Notes under the pieces: model-generated
Databases searched by the model: none
Told to the model about the DNA's origin: nothing
What the model saw: only the letters and a program-made list of their open reading frames with translations
DNA from: Nocardioidaceae bacterium
GTDB lineage: Bacteria > Actinomycetota > Actinomycetes > Propionibacteriales > Nocardioidaceae
Assembly: GCA_030447585.1 (NCBI GenBank)
Contig: JAUJOO010000009.1
Coordinates: 5,334-69,333 of the forward strand
Direction: 5' to 3'
Length of the DNA stretch: 64,000 nucleotides
Shown here: positions 7,951-33,585 of the stretch, piece after piece
How the letters are laid out: the number at the start of each line of letters is the position of its first letter
Numbering within the stretch: position 1 is the first letter of the stretch
Made by a program: the position numbers and the translations under genes

Positions 7951-8679
7951 ATGGTGAGGCGCTACGACCTCAACGCCGACGTCGGCGAGGGGTTCCCGTA
8001 CGACGACGAGCTCATGAGGCTCGTGACACAGGCGAACGTCGCCTGCGGGTTCCACGCAGGTGACGAGGCCACCATGCGCGACGCCTGCCTGCTCGCCGCC
8101 GCGCGGGGGGTGTTGGTGGGGGCGCAGGTGTCGTATCGGGACCGCGAGCACTTCGGCCGTCGCGAGCTCGAGGTCGACTCGCCGACCCTTGTCCGTGACC
8201 TCAGCGAGCAGGTCTCGACGCTGACGACGATCGCGACCGGTGCACAGACCCTCGTCAGCTACGTGAAACCCCACGGTGCGCTCTACAACCGGGTGGTCTG
8301 GGACGAGCGTCAGGCGGCTGCCGTGGTCCAGGTGTGTCGCGCGCGTACGCTGCCGGTGATGTGCCTGCCTGGCTCGGCGCTGCTGGAGCTCGCTGCTGCG
8401 GCCGGCGTCGCGACCATGCGCGAGTTCTTCGCCGACCGGGCTTACGACGCCCGCGGCCGTCTCGTACCCCGCGCCGATCCCGGGGCAGTCATCGACGACC
8501 CCGAGGCCGTATCGGCGAGGGTACGACGGCTCGTGCGGGACGGCACAGTCGAGACCGTCGACGGTTCGGTGCTCGGGGTCGAGGCGGACTCGGTCTGCGT
8601 ACACGGCGACACCCCCGAAGCCGCCGCCATCGCCAGAGCCGTGCGGGAGGCGCTCGACGAGTCGAGCCGCGCGCCATGA
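7951..8679 (+). CDS. pxpA: 5-oxoprolinase subunit A (LamB/YcsF family)
   Basis: YDLNADVGEGFPYDDELMRLVTQANVACGFHAGD. Confidence 0.92.
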   Translation: MVRRYDLNADVGEGFPYDDELMRLVTQANVACGFHAGDEATMRDACLLAAARGVLVGAQVSYRDREHFGRRELEVDSPTLVRDLSEQVSTLTTIATGAQTLVSYVKPHGALYNRVVWDERQAAAVVQVCRARTLPVMCLPGSALLELAAAAGVATMREFFADRAYDARGRLVPRADPGAVIDDPEAVSARVRRLVRDGTVETVDGSVLGVEADSVCVHGDTPEAAAIARAVREALDESSRAP

Positions 8680-9305
8680 GAGTGCTGACGGCCGGAGCTC
8701 ACGCACTTCTCGTCGAGGTCGGTGACGTCGGCGAGGTCAGAGCGGCGTACCAGCAGATCCTGGCCATGGCCGGCGAGAGTGGACTGGGCGCGCCCCTGGA
8801 CATCGTCCCCGGTGCCCGTACTGTCCTCATCGACGGTGTCGGCGACCAGGACGGCTGGCGGCGCGCACTGCCACAGAGACTGGCGTCTCGAGGAGACCGG
8901 ACTCCGACGGAAACAGTCTCGGGCTCCGACGTCACGATCAGGCTCAGCTACGACGGTCCCGACCTCTACGTGGTGGCGCAGGCCTGGGACTGCGACCCCG
9001 ACGAGGTGGTGCGACGTCACCAGGACAGCGTCTACACCGTTGCCTTCAGCGGCTTTGCTCCGGGGTTTGCCTACTGCACGGCCGAGCCACCACAGCCGCA
9101 GGTGTCGCGCCGAGACAACCCGCGCGAGAGCGTGCCGGTCGGTTCCGTGGCGCTCGCGGGGGAGTACTGCGGAATCTACCCACGCACCATGCCAGGTGGC
9201 TGGCAGCTGATAGGCACCACCTCCGCGGTCATGTTCGACCCCGCCCGAGAGGCGCCTGCTCTGCTTCAGCCCGGGGATCGTGTGACGTTCGAGGCGGCGA
9301 CATGA
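8676..9305 (+). CDS. pxpB: 5-oxoprolinase subunit B (KipI family)
   Basis: FSGFAPGFAYCTAEPPQPQVSRRDNPRESVPVGSVALAGEYCGIYPRTMPGGWQLIGTT. Confidence 0.9.
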   Translation: MRVLTAGAHALLVEVGDVGEVRAAYQQILAMAGESGLGAPLDIVPGARTVLIDGVGDQDGWRRALPQRLASRGDRTPTETVSGSDVTIRLSYDGPDLYVVAQAWDCDPDEVVRRHQDSVYTVAFSGFAPGFAYCTAEPPQPQVSRRDNPRESVPVGSVALAGEYCGIYPRTMPGGWQLIGTTSAVMFDPAREAPALLQPGDRVTFEAAT

Positions 9306-17580: not shown

Positions 17581-19035
17581 GTGTCGCCGAGCACACCCAC
17601 CACTGTGCCAGGATCCGCCCCGCTCTCGCCGCCCGAGCGACGAACCACGGCCGCCGCAACGTCTGCCGCCGGACGAGCGACCGTGACCGCTTCGGCGGTG
17701 AGCCCCACGAACGCCAAGAGCAAGAAGCCGGTCGACAAGAGGGCATCGCCGGTGAAGTCGGTCGCGCCTGCGAAGGCGCCCGCCAAGAAGGGTCCGGCTG
17801 CGCCTGCGACAACCGAGAGACCGCCCAAGAAGGCCGCGGCGAAGACCGCGCCGGTCAAGGAGGCGTCGGCGAAGAAGGCGCCGGCGAAGAAGGCCGTCCC
17901 CTCCACTGACCCTACGACCAGCGCGTCACCCGACCTCGTCGTCGACATCCCTGCCGTCGCGCTGGATCTTGACGCGGACACCAAAAAAGACCCTTGCCGA
18001 CATAGACGACACCATCTTCGAGAAGGACCTCGCCACAGACCCGACGCTGAAGGAAGACGAGAAGCAGGGGTTCACCCTCCGAGGCCGACGAGGCGGACGA
18101 GCCGGAGCAGACCGTCACAGTCGCGGGCGCTACTGCCGACCCGGTCAAGGACTACCTCAAGCAGATCGGCAAGGTGCCGTTGCTGAACGCGGAGATGGAG
18201 GTCGAGTTGGCCAAGCGCATCGAGGCCGGCCTCTTCTCAGAGGAGAAGCTGGCCCGAAACGGCAAGCTCTCGGCCAAGATGCTCGGCGAGCTGGCCTGGA
18301 TCGCCGAGGACGGACGCCGCGCCAAGAACCACCTCCTCGAGGCGAACCTGCGGCTGGTCGTCTCCCTCGCGAAGCGCTATACAGGCCGCGGCATGCTGTT
18401 TCTCGACCTGATCCAAGAAGGCAACCTGGGTCTGATCCGAGCAGTCGAGAAGTTCGACTACACCAAGGGATACAAGTTCTCCACCTATGCCACCTGGTGG
18501 ATCCGGCAGGCGATCACGCGAGCGATGGCTGACCAGGCCCGCACGATCCGCATCCCGGTTCACATGGTCGAGGTCATCAACAAGCTGGCCCGCGTGCAGC
18601 GCCAGATGCTCCAGGACCTCGGCGGGAGCCGACCCCGGAGGAGCTCGCCAAGGAGCTCGACATGACCCCTGAGAAGGTCGTCGAGGTACAGAAGTACGGT
18701 CGTGAGCCGATCTCGCTGCACACCCCGCTCGGCGAGGACGGTGACTCGGAGTTCGGTGACCTGATCGAAGACTCCGAAGCGATCGTTCCTGCTGACGCCG
18801 TGTCGTTCACCCTGCTGCAAGAGCAGCTGCACGCAGTGCTCGACACCCTTTCGGAGCGGGAGGCGGGGGTCGTGTCCATGCGCTTCGGCCTCACCGACGG
18901 TCAGCCGAAGACGCTTGACGAGATCGGCAAGGTCTACGGCGTGACGCGTGAACGCATCCGCCAGATCGAGTCGAAGACAATGTCAAAGCTCCGCCACCCT
19001 CACGCAGCCAGGTGCTGCGCGACTACCTCGACTGA
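17581..19035 (+). CDS. sigA: principal sigma factor SigA/HrdB-like, with four apparent single-base frameshifts
   Basis: Lys/Ala-rich N-terminus; [125 protein letters not shown](S)[10 protein letters not shown]. Frame changes near 17985, 18080, 18622 and 18998. Confidence 0.88.
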
Positions 19036-19039
19036 GGCT
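19016..19039. repeat. attL-like direct repeat (end of sigA coding sequence)
   Basis: tgcgcgactacctcgactgaggct, encodes the last SigA residues (LRDYLD*). Confidence 0.85.
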
Positions 19040-19107
19040 CGTCGGACGCTAAAGGCGTTTGTGCAGTTCAGAGGCGGATTAGGGTCTCTGTCTTGCGACA
19101 CGCTACC

Positions 19108-19908
19108 CGACCTGCCTCCGGTTCTCGATCGCCGCCATCGCTGCTCTCTGGTTTCGTTGACCATCGATCGCCGCCAGCTTTCTGGTTTCGTCGACCACCT
19201 GCTCGACCACGCGCAACCGGCCACTGCCAGGGTGCGTCAGCTCGCCGTACGACGGTTCTCCCTCTGGCTCGAGGAGGAGGGCGAGCAGGACACGGACCCG
19301 CTGCTCGGCGTCAAGCCGCCAAAGCTCGACTCCAAGGTCATCGAGCCGCTGAGCGACGCACAGCTCAAGGCGATGCTGAAAGCCTGCGCTGGCCCGGAAC
19401 TACGCGACCGGCGAGACGAGGCGATCCTGCGGCTCATGGTGGAGACCGGGGCCCGGGCCGGCGAGGTTGCCGTGCTCGAGAGCTGGCCGACGTCGACCTG
19501 CTAGCCGGGACCGCCATCGTCAGACGCGGCAAGGGCGGCAAGGGCCGCACCGTCCCGTTCGGGTCACAGACCGCCCGCGCCATCGACCGGTACATCCGAG
19601 TGCGCCGAACGCACCGGCTCGCCAACAGTCCGGCACTATGGCTGGGGGACCGCGGCAAGCCGTTCCGCTATGACGGGCTGCACAAGTCGCTGGGGATGCG
19701 AGCCAAGATGGCTGGTGTCGACGGGTTCCACCCTCACCGGCTGCGACACACTGCCGCGCACCGCTGGCTGGCCGCTGGCGGCTCCGAGGGCGGCCTGATG
19801 GCCGTAGCGGGCTGGACGAGGCCCGACATGCTCATGCGGTACACGAAGGCTCAGGCGTCCGCACGGGCCGCCGACGAAGCCCGCACGCTGAACCTGGGGG
19901 AGTTGTGA
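19108..19908 (+). CDS. int: tyrosine recombinase/integrase (one apparent frameshift near 19480; start uncertain)
   Basis: [24 protein letters not shown] then [28 protein letters not shown]...[19 protein letters not shown]...LMRYTKAQA in the next frame; R...HxxR...Y pattern. Confidence 0.85.
19126..19200. repeat. imperfect tandem duplication near attL
   Basis: cgatcgccgccatcgctgctctctggtttcgttgacca / cgatcgccgccagctttctggtttcgtcgacca. Confidence 0.5.
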
Positions 19909-20420: not shown

Positions 20421-20722
20421 GTGGCCAGTACCGACTCAGAGCGCATCCTTCGCTCACGCATCGCAGCCCACACTTCCTGGGCGCTCACTGACAATCGCTC
20501 AGCCAGAACCGCCCCGGCGCGTGCTGCGCTCGACGCAAGTTCCTCGAACAGGCCGGCGGTGACCCTGTTCGTGCTGCACACCTTCGCAAGGCCCACTTTG
20601 CACGCCTCGCGCTGAAGTCGGCACAGTCGCGCCGCAAAGCCCAGGAGCCTCACCGCCGTCGCGGAGACCGCCGAGGCCGAACTGGCAGGGATTTTGACCA
20701 GCGGGGCGACCATGCCGCCTGA
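20421..20722 (+). CDS. small conserved actinobacterial mobile-element protein (frameshifted near 20535; end uncertain)
   Basis: MASTDSERILRSRIAAHTSWALTDNRSARTAPARAALDA | KFLEQAGGDPVRAAHLRKAHFARLALKSAQSRRKA after restoring one base. Confidence 0.55.
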
Positions 20723-20760: not shown

Positions 20761-21057
20761 CTGGAATCTCGCTGGCTGGCAAGAACAGAACCAATCTACA
20801 CCGCGCGGCCGACAGAAACGACCACCTGGAGTCGTTCGGCGCCCGTGTCATCCAGGACGCCCTCAGTGAGGCCACAGCGAGTTACTGGCGTCGACGTGCC
20901 GCCGTGTTCGAGACTGCGCGGCCGAAGGTCGGAGACTTCCCGGATGGGCTGCGCGCGCCGACCTCAGAGCCAGAGACGAACGGCTGGCAACCACGGCCCT
21001 AGCGTGCCGCCAGCGCGCCGCAGTCGCCCTGTACGGCGAGCAGGTGCCCGATGTCTA
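20761..21057 (+). CDS. hypothetical element protein (frameshifted near 20960; start uncertain)
   Basis: SGISLAGKNRTNLHRAADRNDHLESFGARVIQDALSEATASYWRRRAAVFETARP... then LRARDERLATTALACRQRAAVALYGEQVPDV* in another frame. Confidence 0.45.
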
Positions 21058-21351
21058 GGCGCTGGCTGCGCGTGCACGTCAACGAGCGCAACGACTTCGC
21101 CGCGATCAACGGCCCTGGCTCAGGAAAGCTCAATCATCGAGGCCGGCGGCAAGGTGTTCTGGTCAAGGCAGCGACATGCATACATGACCAACCGCAGGAT
21201 TGCCAGCAACGTCATGGCCCTCGCGGAGCACCGCGGATACACCGTCACCTACAGCGAAGATCTTGATCTCCACGACATCAAGATCTCGATCGGGAACACA
21301 GAGGAGATCCTGATCGGGAACACCTCCTCGGCCGAGGGCGGTGCGGCGTGA
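21051..21351 (+). CDS. hypothetical protein (frameshifted near 21110)
   Basis: MSRRWLRVHVNERNDFAAIN | ALAQESSIIEAGGKVFWSRQRHAYMTNRRIASNVMALAEHRGYTVTYSEDLDLHDIKISIGN. Confidence 0.5.
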
Positions 21352-21884
21352 CTGGCCGTAGGGCATGGCGCTATGACCGGCGCCCGAGGTGGCGCAAGGA
21401 CATCCTCTCGTCACCCCACTACAGCCCTACTCACAAGCTCATCCTGGCGGCGACCGCCGAGCGGATGAGGGCTGACGGCAAGTTCGCGGTCGAACGCAAA
21501 GAGGTCATGTGGATGTCCGGCGTCAAGCACCCGCAGAGGGTCACGGAGGCATGGTCAAGGGCCGTGCTGTTCGAGCACCTGACACTCGTCACGAAGATGG
21601 CGTACGGGCAGCCGACTCGGTACCAAGCCATCTTCCCGACCAACCCGTGCGGCGAGCTGTGCACCCGCGACGAGCACAAGTTTAACCCGCGTGTAGTGAC
21701 CGCAAATCCGGTCACTATAAGTACACACGCGGCACCCGCTCAGCCACCCACCTGGCCGCCGCCAACGGAAACCGAACCGGACCTCGAAGACCAGCGCCAA
21801 TGGAAGCGTGAACTGCCGTCCCTCATCCGCCTCGCGGCCGACCGCTTCGCCATGCCTGACAACGACGAACGGACCGGAACATGA
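21348..21884 (+). CDS. hypothetical protein, possible winged-helix DNA-binding/replication-associated
   Basis: WRKDILSSPHYSPTHKLILAATAERMRADGKFAVERKEVMWMSGVKHPQRVTEAWSRAVLFEHLTLV; coding-like composition, downstream ORF overlaps its stop. Confidence 0.5.
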   Translation: MTGRRAWRYDRRPRWRKDILSSPHYSPTHKLILAATAERMRADGKFAVERKEVMWMSGVKHPQRVTEAWSRAVLFEHLTLVTKMAYGQPTRYQAIFPTNPCGELCTRDEHKFNPRVVTANPVTISTHAAPAQPPTWPPPTETEPDLEDQRQWKRELPSLIRLAADRFAMPDNDERTGT

Positions 21885-22280: not shown

Positions 22281-22493
22281 GTGCCGCGCCGCAATGCAAA
22301 CGCTCATCCACGGCGCTTCGTGCCGCCGCCGCAACCGCGACCACCAGAACCGGAGGCCAACCGGATACCGGACCAGTTGGCCCGCAACCTCGTACGCCGC
22401 CACCTCGCATCAACCGCCATCCTCGGCTGGCGGCCAGCACCGAAGACGCAAGCACCCGCAACGACCGACGAAGAAGGGCAGGCAGCACCATGA
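22281..22493 (+). CDS. hypothetical protein
   Basis: VPRRNANAHPRRFVPPPQPRPPEPEANRIPDQLARNLVRRHLASTAILGWRPAPKTQAPATTDEEGQAAP*. Confidence 0.4.
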   Translation: MPRRNANAHPRRFVPPPQPRPPEPEANRIPDQLARNLVRRHLASTAILGWRPAPKTQAPATTDEEGQAAP

Positions 22494-22964
22494 CCACCAG
22501 GACCAAGGAAACCCTCGAGGAACGCGCCGCGCGTGTACAGGGGGAGATGGCCGAGCTGTACGCGGAACAGAACCGTCAGCAGCGTGCCAATGCCGAGAAG
22601 CTAGCCCAGCACCACAAAGCCGTCGACGCCGAGGCCGTCGCCGCCTATGACCGGAAGGCGCTCGACGCTGAGGTTGAGAAGGCAAGACAAGCCGTCGTGC
22701 AAGCCGTCGTCGACCATCCGCTCACCAAGGCGCTCAGTCGCTACTACATCGCCGGCGCTCGCCGCCGAGAGCTGTTCGACCAGCGCATCGGCGCCCTCGG
22801 ACGGCAGGGCCGCGACATCACCGGCGTCCGGCACCCAGAGACCATGCCGATCGACGTCATCGGCCTCATGGTCAACACAGCAGCGAACGCCGGCACCGAC
22901 GCCCGCCTCGAGCTCGAGGCAGCTTCCACACCCGCCGCGACACAATCCCTGAGGAGAACGAGAA
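22490..22964 (+). CDS. coiled-coil hypothetical protein (3' end uncertain)
   Basis: MTTRTKETLEERAARVQGEMAELYAEQNRQQRANAEKLAQHHKAVDAEAVAAYDRKALDAEVEKARQAV... Confidence 0.45.
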
Positions 22965-23222
22965 GTGAACGAAATGGAGATCGACTTCCCCGCCATAAAG
23001 GAAATCGACACCGACGCCGTCCGGCTCGAGGCCAAGTTCTTCCGGTACGACGAGCACCTCGACCGAGCGGCCGACCTGTTCGAGTCCGACCCGCAGGCGT
23101 GGCTCAAGCTGCCCGTGCAACTGCAGGACGCGTCCGGCCTGTACCGCGACAGGCGCACCCTCTACCGCAAAGCGGTCGACCGCGGCGTCATTCCCGACGA
23201 CCGCGGACCGTCCGCGGCCTAA
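22965..23222 (+). CDS. hypothetical protein
   Basis: MNEMEIDFPAIKEIDTDAVRLEAKFFRYDEHLDRAADLFESDPQAWLKLPVQLQDASGLYRDRRTLYRKAVDRGV. Confidence 0.5.
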   Translation: MNEMEIDFPAIKEIDTDAVRLEAKFFRYDEHLDRAADLFESDPQAWLKLPVQLQDASGLYRDRRTLYRKAVDRGVIPDDRGPSAA

Positions 23223-23432: not shown

Positions 23433-23793
23433 CAGACCCAATATGACAGCGGCGTCAACGTCGCTTCTCGTCGGTGGGAGCCATGGTCACCGATGTGAAG
23501 ATCGAAGGCAGCCAGCGCGTCTTTCTCCTTCCTTTCTCGCGCCTAGACCTGCCTGCGCCGCGTGCTGGCCGGCATGTGAAATCCCTTCCGTGCCGGTCAG
23601 CACTCCCACCGATGGGCGCCGAAGAGTGTCCATCATCGGACCTTTTAGTTTCATACAGTCAGGCAGGCCCTATGCCGACCGGTGGCCCCGCTCAGGAGGT
23701 GGGGGGACACCCCCACCCGCGCTCAAACGGAGACCTCGCGGCTAGCGCCGTCCGACTCCCCGGACCCGAATCACTTGAAGTTTGGAGGCTCTG

Positions 23794-24114
23794 ATGCCCC
23801 GTAAACCCGCTCAGACGGCCGGTGAGGCGCTGAGGAGTGCCGTGCTGGACGAGTACGAACTCGAACCCCACGAGCTGCTGCTGCTCGACTCAGCGGCTCA
23901 CACAGCCGACTCGTGCGCCGACCTGCAAGCCATAGTCGACCGCGATGGGCCGGTCACGCCCGAGGGCAAGCCGTTGCCGGCCCTGGTTGAGCTTCGGTTG
24001 CAGCGGCTGACGCTCGGGAGGCTGTTGGCGTCGCTGCGTATCCCGGTCGAGGACAAGCATCTGCCGGCGCGGCCGACACGGGGGTTCTACGGCAAGCCCA
24101 GGTCAGTGTCGTGA
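23794..24114 (+). CDS. phage small-terminase (P27)-like protein
   Basis: LRSAVLDEYELEPHELLLLDSAAHTADSCADLQAIVDRDGPVTPEGKPLPALVELRLQRLTLGRLLASLRIP; resembles small subunit-like proteins of actinobacterial phages (recalled). Confidence 0.5.
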   Translation: MPRKPAQTAGEALRSAVLDEYELEPHELLLLDSAAHTADSCADLQAIVDRDGPVTPEGKPLPALVELRLQRLTLGRLLASLRIPVEDKHLPARPTRGFYGKPRSVS

Positions 24115-24344
24115 GGCGCCGACCACCGCCACCGCCACCGGAGATGCCGGCATGGCTGCGTGCGTTTCACCCGGCCGACTGGGGAGCCAACGCGGACGCC
24201 GACCGGGACAGCTTGGAGATGTATGAGGCACGGAGGCGGTACAACACCGCCTGCGGTGACTGGTGCCGGGCACACGATGTCGACCCGCTAGCCGTGATTC
24301 GGCAAGGACGCCAGGACCGCCACCTCGCGGGCGGCGCATCGTGA
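24111..24344 (+). CDS. hypothetical protein
   Basis: MRRRPPPPPPEMPAWLRAFHPADWGANADADRDSLEMYEARRRYNTACGDWCRAHDVDPLAVI; overlaps upstream stop. Confidence 0.45.
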   Translation: MRRRPPPPPPEMPAWLRAFHPADWGANADADRDSLEMYEARRRYNTACGDWCRAHDVDPLAVIRQGRQDRHLAGGAS

Positions 24345-24687: not shown

Positions 24688-25182
24688 TCAAACCTGGCTG
24701 ACTTCGTCCAGCCTCCCGGTGGCCACATCGAAGACGAAGCCGCGGACCGCGTCTTTCTTCGGCACGAACGGGCTGTCGAGGATGCGCCCGAGGGACTTGC
24801 GCACGTCGTCCTCGAGGGAGGTGAACGACTCCGCCTGCCAGGTCGGCCGCTGGCCGGTCTCGCTTTCGAGCTTGTCGGCGAATTGGTCGTCAGTGAACGT
24901 CAGCATGCCGCAGTCGGTGTGGTGGATCAGGACAATCTCCTGAGTGCCCAGCAGGTGCTGGCTGATCGCCAGGGAACGGATCGCGTCATCGGTGACCACG
25001 CCGCCGGCATTGCGGATGACATGGCAATCGCCCTCCTCGATGCCCAAGGCGGCGTACACGTTGAGGCGGGCGTCCATGCAGGCCAGGACCGCGATGTGCT
25101 TTGCGGGCGGCATTGGCAGCGGGCCGGAGAAACCAGCAGCGTAGGCCTCGTTGTTCTTCAGGTACTCCTCGGTCACAGTCAT
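24688..25182 (-). CDS. beta-carbonic anhydrase
   Basis: HIAVLACMDARLNVYAALGIEEGDCHVIRNAGGVVTDDAIRSLAISQHLLGTQEIVLIHHTDCGM. Confidence 0.9.
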   Translation of the reverse strand: MTVTEEYLKNNEAYAAGFSGPLPMPPAKHIAVLACMDARLNVYAALGIEEGDCHVIRNAGGVVTDDAIRSLAISQHLLGTQEIVLIHHTDCGMLTFTDDQFADKLESETGQRPTWQAESFTSLEDDVRKSLGRILDSPFVPKKDAVRGFVFDVATGRLDEVSQV

Positions 25183-25434
25183 CGGCAGTCCTCCTCAGTC
25201 GCGGGTTCGCAGGTCAGCCCACAGCGTACGCACGGCCGGAAAACCATGGGGACGACCCCGACGCTGACCTGGGCGGCTGTCATGGTCCGCCTTCCGACGC
25301 CACGGCCTCAGAAACGGCACAGGGGCGCCTGTAGGCATCTCTCCCCACCGTCACGGCGTCGCGCGGGACCAATGCCTGAGCCCCAGCGCTAGGACGACCT
25401 GCGCCGCTAGCGCATTGTGCTGTCATTGTGTGCT

Positions 25435-26241
25435 GTGGGCACGTTGGATGGATCCGAAGCCATGGCTTTCGAGGTTGCTCGCCGGGTGCTGGGGGTGACC
25501 GTCGAGCACTACGACACCGCGGGTCGACAAGGCGCGGTCGACGCGATCCTTCACTACCCTGACGGGCGCACAGCGGCGTTCGAGGTGACCAGGCTTGCCG
25601 GTCCGGGTGAACTACAGCTCGACTCGATCTTGGGCAGTCAGGGACACTCGTGGCCCAACCCGGGGAACTGGTGGTGGACTATCAACGTCGACAGTGTGGC
25701 CGACATCCCACGACTCAGGAGCTGCTACGCATCCATCCTCCAGACCTGCGAGTCGCTGGGTGTCCAACGACCCGACAGCTTGGGTTGGACCGACCATGCG
25801 CGAGACGACGAGGACTTGCAGTGGCTCGCAGAGTCATCGGTTCGGATGGTCGGTCATCCTGAGGTGCCAAGCCGCACCGACGACGAGGTGCGCGACGTGA
25901 TGGTCGTGCGCGGCGCCGTTGGTGGCGCGGTGGATGAGGCGCTCAGCGGCCTGCCAGATGCACTGCATCGCGCTTTCGAGGCTGACCACGTGCGCCGCCG
26001 CATCGGCAAGCTGGGACGCGCAGCCCAGACGGAACGGCACCTGTTTCTGATCTTAGGACTCACCGGCCTTGCCTTCCCCGTCATCGACGGACTGATCGTT
26101 GGCCGTGCGCTCCCCTCTGAGCCTCCCCCGGTGCCCACCGATAAGGTCACGCACCTGTGGCTGGCGCCGGCGTGGAGCCAGCGTGTCCTGCTTTGGGCGA
26201 ACAACTCGTGGAGCCAGTGGCACCCTTACGACGCCGCCTAG
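25435..26241 (+). CDS. hypothetical protein, possibly PD-(D/E)XK-like
   Basis: GRQGAVDAILHYPDGRTAAFEVTRLAGPGELQLDSILGSQGHSW...; D...ExT pattern only. Confidence 0.5.
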   Translation: MGTLDGSEAMAFEVARRVLGVTVEHYDTAGRQGAVDAILHYPDGRTAAFEVTRLAGPGELQLDSILGSQGHSWPNPGNWWWTINVDSVADIPRLRSCYASILQTCESLGVQRPDSLGWTDHARDDEDLQWLAESSVRMVGHPEVPSRTDDEVRDVMVVRGAVGGAVDEALSGLPDALHRAFEADHVRRRIGKLGRAAQTERHLFLILGLTGLAFPVIDGLIVGRALPSEPPPVPTDKVTHLWLAPAWSQRVLLWANNSWSQWHPYDAA

Positions 26242-26308: not shown

Positions 26309-26681
26309 ATGAGACCCGTCGACGGCAACTCTCGACGAGGCCGCGCACATCGTCGGGTGCTCGCTCCGACAGGTGGCCCGCCACATCGAGGCGGGGCGCC
26401 TGCCAGCGGGACCGAAGCGCCAGCCGCGCAAGGTTTCCCGCGCCGAGGCCGAAGCGTTCGCACTGCAATTGCCCTCGTCCCGTGTGCCGTTCGACCGTGA
26501 CACGTCGTACTGGGTCGGGGCCACACAAGCCTCACGCATCCTCGGAGTGAACGTCGCACGGCTAAACCAGCTCGTCGCTAAGGGGTTCGTGCCATTCGAG
26601 GTCCACGCTGACGGACGGCGCATCTACCGGCGCGAGCAGTTGCTCACCGTGGCGAACGCCCGAGAGGCCCGCTGGCACTAG
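26309..26681 (+). CDS. excisionase-type/HTH DNA-binding protein (frameshift in first codons)
   Basis: TLDEAAHIVGCSLRQVARHIEAGRLPAGPKRQPRKVSRAEAEAFALQL...YWVGATQASRILGVNVARLNQLVAKGFVPFEVHADGRRIYRREQL; two HTH units. Confidence 0.65.
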
Positions 26682-26768: not shown

Positions 26769-27244
26769 TTACAGGACGCTTTCCCAGTCGTCTCTGTACG
26801 GCTCGACTCCAAGATTGAACGCCCACTCGATCGCGTCCTCGAAGGTCAGGCGCCCGGTAGGCATGTGTTTCTCAGCCGTTGGTGCGTCCGAGTTCGGCAC
26901 TTGGAAGTTTGCGTGGATGTGCAGAGCTTGGTAGCGGCGGTTGTACGGGTGCCAGTGAATACGAAAAATGTCCTGCCCTAGAGCGCTGAGCTTGTACGGT
27001 ATGCACGCGTGGTCACGCGCCACTCATGCTCGTTGACCCGGATAATCTCGTAGTGCATCTCAGCTTCAAAGTGGGAGCCCCTGACCGCGAAACCCGTCGA
27101 GCCGTTTAGCGTCCACGCTCTGACACCCCCGGGCTGTCGGCCTCCGGCGCTCGTAACTATCTTCGCCTGACCAAGGCACGAGACAGAGCGCCTCAGCGGC
27201 GCAATGAACGCCTCGAACGCATCAGCAGGGGTGCGCCCTGGCAC
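26769..27244 (-). CDS. hypothetical protein of a two-gene module (one frameshift near 26995)
   Basis: FAVRGSHFEAEMHYEIIRVNEHEWRVTTRAY | YKLSALGQDIFRIHWHPYNRRYQALHIHANFQVPNSDAPTAEKHMPTGRLTFEDAIEWAFNLGVEPYRDDWESVL*. Confidence 0.55.
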
Positions 27245-27256
27245 AGAACGGGGCGT

Positions 27257-27460
27257 CTACCGGGCGAAGGGCGCAAGCATCATCAACCGGACGACGCCCT
27301 CGTCGTCGGTGTCATCAAACTCACCGCTGTCCAGACGCTGAAGGAACTCCTCGGGCTGCATACCCAAACGGTCTCTCACTTGAGCCGCGAACATCTTGCG
27401 CCCTTCCGCTTGAGTCAACTCCTCGACCTCGATCGCCGCGTCTGCCATTGCTCCACGCAT
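27257..27460 (-). CDS. small acidic protein, partner of downstream gene
   Basis: MRGAMADAAIEVEELTQAEGRKMFAAQVRDRLGMQPEEFLQRLDSGEFDDTDDEGVVRLMMLAPFAR*. Confidence 0.55.
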   Translation of the reverse strand: MRGAMADAAIEVEELTQAEGRKMFAAQVRDRLGMQPEEFLQRLDSGEFDDTDDEGVVRLMMLAPFAR

Positions 27461-27591
27461 GGTCTCGCCCTTCCCTTGCGCCGGTCTAACCACCGTACAC
27501 GCATCACTCAGATACCGTCTCAGCAACCGCCGACAGTGCAAAAGTTAGACCCGCCCAAGGGTGAGTTAAGTAAGTCATCACCCGAACAAAC

Positions 27592-27620
27592 GACCCCCGC
27601 TCCTATATCGAGCGGGGGTC
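27592..27620. terminator. strong intrinsic-type hairpin
   Basis: gacccccgctc ctatatc gagcgggggtc, perfect 11-bp stem. Confidence 0.6.
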
Positions 27621-27717
27621 GCTGTACGTCGTGGATGGTTTGGTCAGTCGCTGACCGCCTCAAGCCACGCCGCCGCCTCGTGGAGAGGGTAGTCGGTCCC
27701 TGTGTCCGAGGCCTTTC

Positions 27718-27909
27718 TTACCGAGCCGAGCGTATGGCGATGCCGATGAAGATGCCGGCGATCAGTCCCACTCCGCCAGCCGCCATGGCGGCCATGGTCC
27801 CGGCCTGCGCTGCGGCTTGGGTGGCTTGTGCGCCTGCCAGAGTGGCAGCCCCGGTCGCTTGGGCGACCTCTACTGTATGCAGTCTCTCCTGGATCTCGTT
27901 CTCTTCCAT
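27718..27909 (-). CDS. small membrane protein with one C-terminal hydrophobic segment
   Basis: MEENEIQERLHTVEVAQATGAATLAGAQATQAAAQAGTMAAMAAGGVGLIAGIFIGIAIRSAR*. Confidence 0.55.
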   Translation of the reverse strand: MEENEIQERLHTVEVAQATGAATLAGAQATQAAAQAGTMAAMAAGGVGLIAGIFIGIAIRSAR

Positions 27910-28018
27910 GCTGGCCCTTTCTTCGGTGGTGTCAACGGACATACGACCCTCACCCTCTGGATGTGGAAGGTGTGGGTACCCACCGCCAAGGTCCCGAAAC
28001 GGTCCGGCACGCCGTTGG

Positions 28019-28345
28019 TCAGTCGCGGGGAGCCAGTTCGACGCCGACGAGGCGGCACGCTTCCAGCAGCGCCATGCCGAGCTCGTGAGCCTGCGCCGGC
28101 GTCAGCTCGGTAACGCCGTTCAGTATGACGGACGGCACGTCCAGGTCGTCGCCGTCCCAGTCTGTGCAGATGGTTGCAGAGACCTCGACGCCGGCGATGG
28201 TCGTGTCAGCGCAGTGTACGAAGTGCCCCTGCGCCACCTCGTCGTAGCCGGGAGCATCAGCACGAGACCCGCCGGGCCGGTTGATGTCGTCATGGTTGGT
28301 GCACCAGGACGGGCACTTCATGGCCCGCTCGGTTGTGGTGGTCAT
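28019..28345 (-). CDS. DUF6907-like protein
   Basis: MKCPSWCTNHDD...VEVSATICTDWDGDDLDVPSVILNGVTELTPAQAHELGMALLEACRLVG. Confidence 0.6.
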   Translation of the reverse strand: MTTTTERAMKCPSWCTNHDDINRPGGSRADAPGYDEVAQGHFVHCADTTIAGVEVSATICTDWDGDDLDVPSVILNGVTELTPAQAHELGMALLEACRLVGVELAPRD

Positions 28346-28441
28346 GGGATGTCGCCTTTCAGTCAAGGATATTTCGACCCACACCGCTCCTGACCTGCAC
28401 GTTTAACACGCTCACACGCACAGCGCTAAGCCGTCCCTAAT

Positions 28442-28465
28442 TGCGCGACTACCTCGACTGAGGCT
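28442..28465. repeat. attR-like direct repeat
   Basis: Identical 24-mer tgcgcgactacctcgactgaggct. Confidence 0.85.
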
Positions 28466-28490
28466 GGTCGGCGCTAGGTGTGCGTCCCGC

Positions 28491-28590
28491 GCGTGCTGCG
28501 CTCGACGCCAAGTTCTTCGAGCGGGTCAACGGGTGACCCTTCGCGTCGCATCTGCGTAAAGCACACTTCGCCCGTCTGGCGCTGAAGTCG
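28491..28590 (+). pseudogene. decayed second copy of part of the 20421 element gene, located outside attR
   Basis: gcgtgctgcgctcgacgccaagttcttcgag...cgtctggcgctgaagtcg aligns to 20519-20620; the frame is broken. Confidence 0.6.
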
Positions 28591-28793
28591 GAGCTAGCCT
28601 GTGTGCCAGAAGTGGCCGCGGCGTATGCGAAAGAGTTCGGGGGACAAACGCGGCGGACACGCTGAGGCTCCGCAGACGACTACGCAAATGGCTCTATTCC
28701 GTTACAACTCAGACACTCTAACGTGGTCAGCAATTCTGGGAAGGGAGCCATACTTGTCGCGCATTCGAATCGGGCGGTGTTGGGCGCGATCGC

Positions 28794-31504: not shown

Positions 31505-33585
31505 GTGCCAGCCAGAGTCTCTGCCGTGGACGCGTCGTACAACGCGCGCCACCTACTCGTGCTCGAGGGACTCGAGGCCGTGCGCAAGCGGCCCGGCATG
31601 TACGTCGGCTCGACAGACACCCGCGGGCTCATGCACTGCCTCTGGGAGATCATCGACAACGGCGTCGACGAGGCCCTCGCCGGTGCCTGCCGCTTGATCC
31701 AGGTGATCCTGCACGCAGACGGCTCCGCCGAGGTTCGCGACGACGGACGCGGGATACCCGTCGACGTCGAGCCGAAGACCGGGCTCGCAGGCGTCGAGGT
31801 CATCTTCACGATGCTGCATGCCGGTGGCAAGTTCGGGGGCGGGTCGTACGTCGCAACGGGCGGCTTGCACGGCGTTGGGGCGTCGGTGGTCAACGCGCTT
31901 TCCGCGCGCCTGGACGTCGAGGTCGACCGAGGCTCGGCCACGTACGCGATGTCGTTCCAGCGGGGGTGGCCGGAGCCTTTGACGGTCCTAGGCCTGCGGA
32001 TGCCTTTGCGCCGTCCTCGGGGATGACCAGGGTCGGCCGTGTCAACAAGGGCGTCACCGGTACCCGGGTGAGGTTCTGGCCGGATCGGCAGATCTTCACC
32101 AGGGATGCCGACTTCGCCTACGACGAGCTGGTTACCCGGGCGCGTCAGACGTCGTTCATCGTCCCAGGTCTCGAGCTCTCCATCCGCGACGAGCGCGGCG
32201 ACGAGGTCCGGCAGGAACGTTTCCGCCACGACGGCGGCATCGCCGAGTTCTGTGAGTTCCTTGCCACCGACGAGGCGGTCACCGATGTGCTGCGACTACG
32301 AGGCGTGGACCACTTCACCGAGACGGTTCCGCTGCTCGACGAGGCAGGGCACATGACGCCGCAGGATGTGGAGCGTGAGCTCGGCGTCGACGTGGCGCTG
32401 CGGTGGGGGATGGGTTACGACACCGAGGTCCGCTCATTCGTCAACGTCATAGCCACCCCCAAGGGAGGCAGTCACCTCCTTGGTTTCGAGCGGGCACTCA
32501 CCAAGACGTTCAACGACGCCGTACGCCAGACCCGCGGTCTGATGAAGGCAGGCGAGAGCGACCTGGTCAAGGAGGACGTGCTCGAGGGACTCACCGCCGT
32601 CGTAACGGTCCGGCTGGCTGAGCCTCAGTTCGAGGGGCAGACGAAGGAGGTGCTCGGAACGCCTGCCGCTTCGCGGATCGTGTCACGGGTGGTCGCGGCG
32701 GAGCTGAAGTCGTTCCTGAGCTCGACCCGAAAAGCCGAGAAGGCGCAGGCGCGAGCGGTCATGGAGAAGGTGGTCAACGCTGCCCGCACTCGGGTGGCAG
32801 CGCGCCAGCAACGCGACACCCAACGCCGCAAGAACGCTCTCGAGTCAAGTGCCTTGCCGGCGAAGCTGGCCGACTGCCGCAGCAACGACGTGGAGCGTAG
32901 CGAGCTTTTCATCGTCGAGGGGGATTCCGCGCTCGGCACCGCCAAGCTGGCAAGGGACTCCGAGTACCAGGCACTGCTCCCGATCCGAGGAAAAATCCTC
33001 AACACCCAGAAAAAGTCGTCGGGGGAGATGCTGCAGAACACCGAATGCGCCGCCATCATCCAGGTCGTCGGCGCCGGCAGCGGCCGCAGCTTCGACCTGG
33101 AGCAGGCCCGCTACGGCAAGATCATTTTCATGGCAGACGCCGACACTGACGGCGCCCACATCCGGTGCCTGCTCACCACGTTGTTCCACAAGCACATGCG
33201 CGAACTGCTGACGGAGCGGCGCGTGTACTCGGCCGTCCCACCGCTGCACCGCATCGAGCTGTCCAACCCGAAGAAGGGGATGGACAAGTACGTCTACACG
33301 TACAGCGACGACGAGCTGCAACGCAGGCTCGCCGAGCTCACCAAGAAAGGCATCCGTTGGAAGGATCCTGTCCAGCGTTACAAGGGACTGGGGGAGATGG
33401 ACGCCGATCAGCTGGCCGAGACGACGATGGACCCTCGACACCGCACCCTGCGTCGGATCACGATCGATGACGCCGAGGGCGCCGAGCAGGTCTTCGAGAT
33501 GCTGATGGGCAATGACGTCGCGCCGCGCAAGGACTTCATCGTCCAAGGTGCCTACGAGGTCGACGCCGAGGCCATCGACGCCTGA
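31505..33585 (+). CDS. parE: DNA topoisomerase IV subunit B (one apparent frameshift near 31960)
   Basis: [39 protein letters not shown]...[15 protein letters not shown] | [36 protein letters not shown]...[18 protein letters not shown]. Confidence 0.92.
33533..33583. repeat. parE 3'-end repeat, left copy
   Basis: acttcatcgtccaaggtgcctacgaggtcgacgccgaggccatcgacgcct. Confidence 0.85.

Follow-up and report, generated by a model that had tools for sequence, protein, structure and literature searches.

A gene resembling those of small terminase subunits (terS) in a bacterial island in which no phage structural genes are recognised raises the question of whose DNA it serves to package, and with whose machinery. 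Such a gene is present in the window, the whole stretch of 64,000 nucleotides of Nocardioidaceae DNA analysed here, and an earlier note on this locus had regarded an actinobacterial phage satellite and a decayed prophage as equally good explanations. We therefore considered the limits and gene content of the island, the identity of the terS product, the sequence upstream of it, and the distribution of comparable islands in 299 genomes of one family and an order-level sample. Genes outside the window were called using a simple in-house caller.

Boundaries and gene content of the island

The island lies directly after the primary sigma-factor gene sigA/rpoD, the 3' part of which (18078-19035, + strand; Sigma70_r3/r4) is 88-93% identical to sigA of relatives and constitutes the attachment gene, with its coding end and stop codon inside attL. 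The 3' end of sigA is repeated (19016-19045 versus 28442-28471) with 29 of 30 positions identical, and this direct repeat contains the attachment core TGCGCGACTACCTCGACTGA, at 19016-19035 (attL, + strand) and again at 28442-28461 (attR, + strand), which equals the end of sigA with the stop codon included. Islands located after sigA elsewhere are flanked by the same core, in which one base is variable. Beside attR lies a conserved inner arm (ACAGCG..CGTCC.TAAT; 28420-28441, + strand) that recurs in sister islands, sequence of this type being found inside attR of loci L056, L090, L092, L095, and L096. The 9.4-kb element mentioned in the earlier note is thus bounded at 19016 and 28442 by the repeat of the sigA end, giving an island of 9.43 kb with a predicted excised form of 9,426 bp. 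Since the final codons of the sigma factor and its stop codon are contained in the core, sigA stays intact after insertion.

Adjacent to attL, a tyrosine integrase gene (19151-19905, + strand; Phage_integrase, 5e-17), already listed in the earlier reading, extends over two frames with an apparent frameshift near 19480 and is 51-86% identical to integrases at sigA in other genomes. Downstream are a gene for a small 'HTSWA...LRKAHFARLALKSAQ' protein (20421-20684, + strand; apparent frameshift near 20534) that is present in every sigA island examined, two small conserved satellite genes, at 20847-21002 (+ strand; VIQDALSEATASYWRRRA..., start uncertain; matches in L013, 1e-10, and L094, 4e-8) and 21100-21351 (+ strand; matches in L050, L094, L056, and L013), and a called ORF of 178 aa (21348-21884, + strand) in the position of relatives' winged-helix-like genes. 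The last has no family match in Pfam or PHROG, and its product may have a replication or regulatory role. A coiled-coil-like ORF (22490-22957, + strand) precedes the packaging region, an arrangement also seen in other TerS islands, and is followed by a small ORF with a strong coding signal (22965-23222, + strand). Just beyond attR, a truncated second copy of the HTSWA-type gene (28486-28599) is probably the remnant of another, earlier island at the sigA site.

To the right of terS, a full-length beta-carbonic anhydrase gene (24688-25182, - strand; PF00484, 4.9e-13) is an unusual cargo for a satellite. Its use as a mark of an island end at 24.6 kb was rejected in view of the att repeat at 28442; this repeat, together with an identity of only 33-37% to the relatives' chromosomal copy beside parE, argues for the gene being cargo. 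A plasmid search returned mainly matches to carbonic anhydrase genes. Further rightward are a called cargo gene for a 274-aa protein (25417-26241, + strand) that gave no convincing match in Pfam, PHROG, or PADLOC, a candidate excisionase or regulator gene (26313-26681, + strand; HTH_17, 6e-11, and MerR-like; phrog_66 excisionase/regulator, 6e-7; start codon uncertain), which corresponds to the HTH/excisionase-like gene proposed earlier, and small accessory genes on the opposite strand (26769-28345, - strand), of which one (28019-28345) is DUF6907-like and also occurs in the right arms of sister islands.

In agreement with the earlier note, Pfam and PHROG revealed no recognisable capsid, portal, tail, or lysis gene within the 9.43-kb island, and no TerL gene either. 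The same databases gave no primase or replication family match in the island. No divergent regulator was found beside the integrase gene, the genes from int to terS running one way; no gene for conjugation or defence was recognised, with PADLOC returning only one HTH-level and one marginal match; and no called ORF of the island is as large as an FtsK/TraB-like DNA translocase. Compared with relatives, apparent frameshifts are present in sigA (two), parE, the integrase gene, and one small gene. Since sigA (18078-19035) and parE (31505-33585) are essential, we treated these as assembly indels and make no claim of pseudogenes, and we counted the apparent frameshifts in the integrase against the satellite reading as far as functionality of the window copy is concerned.

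The small terminase gene and the cos-like site upstream of it

The terS gene (23794-24114, + strand) starts with ATG preceded by GGAGG, displays a GC content by codon position (0.74/0.47/0.81) like that of a real gene, and encodes 106 aa. Its product matches PHROG_1496 'terminase small subunit' (E=3.2e-7), as do all nine members of an alignment comprising the window protein and eight homologues from related and distant genomes. PF05119 is matched by four of the nine; the window protein is not among them and has no Pfam match, missing Pfam's P27 model. An AlphaFold model obtained with six locus-derived sequences as input has three helices and a pLDDT of 79.5. Foldseek ranked the HK97 small terminase first in the PDB (8pop, 6z6e) at a weak E-value of about 0.7, and nearly all top ranks among viral structures were small terminases with probability near 1 and weak E-values (0.01-0.7); a PDB sequence search with the TerS profile gave nothing meaningful. 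The predicted fold backs the small terminase identity, short of proof. From the family match and the alignment, the P27-type small terminase suggested by the earlier note stands, and the product of 23794-24114 can be securely assigned to the P27/HK97 type.

When used as a query, the window TerS reached zero phages among 50,697 records and zero viral contigs; phages were reached only from L013, a central satellite TerS, and L019, a prophage TerS. Overlapping the terS stop codon is a small ORF with a basic start (24111-24344, + strand; 77 aa; weak similarity). A small gene lies 3' of terS in most TerS islands, and the weak similarity among these genes is only suggestive of a shared family.

In phages of the cos type, TerS recognises cos and brings the DNA to TerL. 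The gap 5' of the window terS contains GGTGGGGGGACACCCCCACC at 23698-23717 and GGCT/AGC at 23740-23746, and we consider this region (23698-23746, + strand) a cos-like site that consists of a G/C-rich box and a predicted cut between T23743 and A23744 (TAGC) and matches the ends of actinophage records. The linear records of Footloose, Mendokysei, and Bernal13, which we take to have been opened at the physical cohesive ends, following general practice for such phages, start with AGC and end with T (joined, ...T/AGC...); a G-rich box is situated approximately 40-50 bp inward of the right end, and TerS is encoded close by. The TerS proteins of these three phages resemble that of the G382 prophage. 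The spacing of box and cut in the window is that of the phage ends, and the same spacing is seen in G420, G428, G124, G402, L098, and the G382 prophage.

A motif derived from the phage ends only was present upstream of 4 of 17 TerS genes located outside full prophages, compared to 6 of 469 other genes (P=2e-4); it should be noted that the motif first came to attention in these very sequences, and that 13 of the 17 TerS islands miss its strict form. A less strict G/C-box pattern, drawn up post hoc, was found in 10 of 20 TerS upstream regions versus 11 of 468 others. As TAGC alone was only weakly enriched upstream of terS (8/20 versus 83/470; P=0.02), the assignment of a cos-like site rests on TAGC and the G-box together, and when the entire window island was scanned for a G-box with TAGC after it, exactly one site was returned, before terS. 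A good cos-like site is also present at the expected position of terS in the G412 island, which encodes a tape measure and no TerS.

Distribution of TerS islands and of the sigA integrase clade

The distribution of the integrase was surveyed using the intact integrase of G368 as query against the 299 genomes. The 11 closest integrases (that of the window and ten others, with at least 66% identity to G368) are all encoded directly after sigA, the window integrase being 77% identical to that of G368 over the matched part; matches at 50-59% identity are not at sigA. Judging from these positions, the clade is specific to sigA. Nine of the ten sister islands were read. Both att cores are clear in G368, G148, G473, G412, and G251, with sizes of 7.1-15.3 kb. 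For G350 and G436, a right core was identified and sigA itself marks the left end; G439 has the left core only, and a contig end truncates G420. Common to these islands and the window are the integrase, the small HTSWA-type protein, and some of the small genes. The phage genes recognised are TerS in the window and G420, TerS and tape measure in G368, tape measure in G350 and G412, capsid (MCP) in G251, TerL, portal/capsid, and tape measure in G473, and a short piece similar to a phage tail/lysis family in G439; none was recognised in the sigA islands of G148 and G436. No full prophage was found at sigA among the clade islands examined, which come from one family and of which some are cut by contig ends. 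Tape measures are closely related between islands with different integrases (for example G412 versus G436, E=4e-126), which points to exchange between islands.

In the sister island of G473, a single ORF of 937 aa (L092, 10342-13155) has successive matches to portal, head protease, and major capsid protein, and may be a natural fusion belonging to a satellite that forms capsids. In that of G368, the tape measure is followed by a 311-aa protein (L056, 6160-7095), to which N-termini in G412 and G439 look similar; its identification as TerL (phrog_13702, 3e-6) was rejected given no recognisable ATPase motif and no Pfam match.

Across the 25 TerS loci, TerL adjoins TerS at three (G382, G440, and G326), all of which are full-prophage-like, and most of the others are integrase islands. 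These include islands with TerS and a tape measure (G360, G428, G436, G368, and G273, the last cut at a contig end) and further ones in which no structural gene was recognised. Four loci (G360, G413, G420, and G273) are cut by contig ends, and the weak TerS matches in G128, G342, and G515 are of doubtful status. An IMG/VR island inside a host gene (L098) also carries TerS and no structural genes; two different TerS-like genes lie close together in it (7986-8336 and 8781-9131). The comparison with relatives that the earlier note had called for thus reveals TerS islands without TerL in several genera.

As a detector of TerL, PF03354 failed on the known prophages G382 and G440, whose TerLs it missed, and a profile built from three TerLs (A3) took its place. 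Neither PF03354 nor A3, nor the search for a portal, gave a match in the host assembly, which is 88.6% complete, so no resident helper is visible in it; given that prophage TerLs of this group escape PF03354, the lack of a match in the host is only limited evidence for an external helper.

TerS of the window kind is also encoded near the left end of twelve Mycolicibacterium records of 10.9-11.1 kb (OR387110-OR387121) that were deposited as phages, with no mention of satellite status, including Anya, WillG, Alyssa1, and JSForest2. In the three records opened, TerS lies 98-317 bp from the left end, and a small gene after TerS, a connector, a capsid, a tape measure, and a serine integrase are annotated; no TerL, portal, or lysis gene is annotated in these three. 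The TerS of one 11-kb record was confirmed as PHROG_1496. Our loci L101, L102, and L109 are such 11-kb Mycolicibacterium records, satellite-like and deposited as phages. Genomes of approximately 11 kb without a packaging motor or portal are, we infer, best explained as satellites, and their recovery as phage isolates suggests that TerS-led 11-kb actinobacterial genomes get packaged. They resemble the window island in size, in having an integrase, a P27 TerS near the left end, and a small gene after TerS, and in their actinobacterial host, and differ from it in the serine integrase, in the capsid, connector, and tape-measure genes, and in the terminal sequence CGACCGGTCGG.

Proposed satellite nature and alternative origins of the island

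The simplest explanation for an element that has its own TerS and a cos-like site, but no TerL, portal, or capsid, is a satellite that redirects the motor and heads of a helper. On the strength of its sequence, we think it probable that the window island is a phage satellite of the cos type, which would supply TerS and cos and use the TerL and particle of its helper. The actinobacterial satellite that the earlier note had put forward gains support from the recurrence of TerS islands without TerL, from the sigA-specific integrase, and from the cos-like site beside TerS. In the proposed cycle, the tyrosine integrase would insert the island at the 3' end of sigA while keeping this essential gene intact. 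Growth of a compatible siphophage would induce the island to excise and amplify, whereupon its TerS would bind the cos region just upstream of terS and recruit the large terminase of the helper, leading to a cut at T/AGC (23743/23744). The 9.43-kb genome would then be packaged, probably as concatemers, into helper procapsids, and helper tails would be added, permitting transfer. Sister islands would enter this process elsewhere, contributing a tape-measure or capsid protein in place of TerS or in addition to it.

Decay of a complete temperate phage at sigA, which would have lost all but the integrase, TerS, and small genes and left TerS without a role, appears unlikely to us. P27-type TerS does occur in the full prophages G382, G440, and G326, and the apparent frameshifts in the island and the truncated HTSWA copy just beyond attR could be taken as signs of such decay; however, sigA and parE have frameshifts as well, a sign of assembly error, the att cores are exact, and one cos-like site is preserved. 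Moreover, compact islands with an intact TerS and no TerL recur across genera, and the islands examined from the sigA clade measure 7-15 kb and include no full prophage. Decay, given equal standing in the earlier note, is now the weaker reading. More improbable still is an island moved by conjugation or generalized transduction with TerS as a passenger or an anti-phage packaging decoy, which would accommodate the lack of recognised replication or induction genes, a TerS that alone might sequester phage TerL or cos, and cargo such as carbonic anhydrase, whereas a phage-type cos site beside terS makes sense only with packaging of the island DNA itself, proteins for building virions (tape measure, capsid) are encoded in sister islands, and no conjugation or defence gene was recognised using PADLOC.

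Within the satellite reading, the chances seem to us about even that the sigA islands are one lineage which shares an integrase, an att site, and a small-gene core and swaps small interchangeable subsets of assembly genes, so that its members would attack one kind of helper at different steps. These subsets would be TerS and cos (window, G420), tape measure and cos (G412), TerS and tape measure (G368), and capsid (G251).

With its att sites, integrase, and incomplete set of virion genes, the island corresponds to satellites in the general sense, and no TerL/portal/capsid module, or remnants of one, as would characterize a prophage, were recognised in it. It resembles the TerS-encoding PICIs of the SaPI type in its integrase, its specific att site, its lack of structural genes, and its own TerS, which in SaPIs redirects helper packaging via pac sites (PMC6092414), and differs from them in lacking a divergent stl/str regulator and a primase-rep module, and in having a cos-like site and 9.4 kb as opposed to a pac site and about 15 kb (PMC6092414). 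The Mycobacterium candidate PICIs, including phiRv1/phiRv2, are likewise small, integrated, and actinobacterial, with few assembly genes, but are defined by an integrase and a capsid gene, the latter missing from the window island, and occupy tRNA or serine-integrase sites rather than sigA (PMC10654092). Tape-measure genes are known in PLEs and cf-PICIs, and PLE virions incorporate the satellite tape measure (PMC12987554). The PLE of Vibrio cholerae, a vibrio satellite of a lytic myophage, swaps single helper parts and contributes a tape measure of its own (PMC12987554), which sister sigA islands seemingly do too, whereas the window island has TerS and no tape measure. The Streptomyces satellites MulchRoom and MiniFlayer share an actinobacterial host with the window island and, unlike it, encode small and large terminase, portal, and capsid and have direct terminal repeats (PMC10690885). 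As in PICIs, structural and lytic genes are lacking in the window island, some sister islands having a tape measure or MCP; the capsid gene that characterizes cf-PICIs and candidate PICIs was not recognised in the window island and is present as MCP in the sister island of G251; and the PICI layout, with a divergent regulator next to int and a xis/primase-rep arrangement, is not seen. The PICI-type satellite envisaged by the earlier note therefore holds as a functional likeness (TerS, no structural genes) and not as to the stl/str regulator and primase-rep module, which were not found, and for want of these two we have filed the island as a phage satellite and not as a PICI.

Satellites have been well documented in Firmicutes, enterobacteria, and vibrios, whereas experimental work on them is thin in Actinobacteria. 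Experimental validation of actinobacterial satellites trails (PMC10023795). The window offers a bounded element with a packaging site predicted to the base, for which the predicted helper class is that of cos siphophages with ends of the Footloose/Bernal13 type. As sister elements at one attachment site carry different virion parts, it could be tested which single part of a helper needs replacing. It is also notable that the attachment site is the 3' end of the primary sigma-factor gene, since the element must preserve an essential gene.
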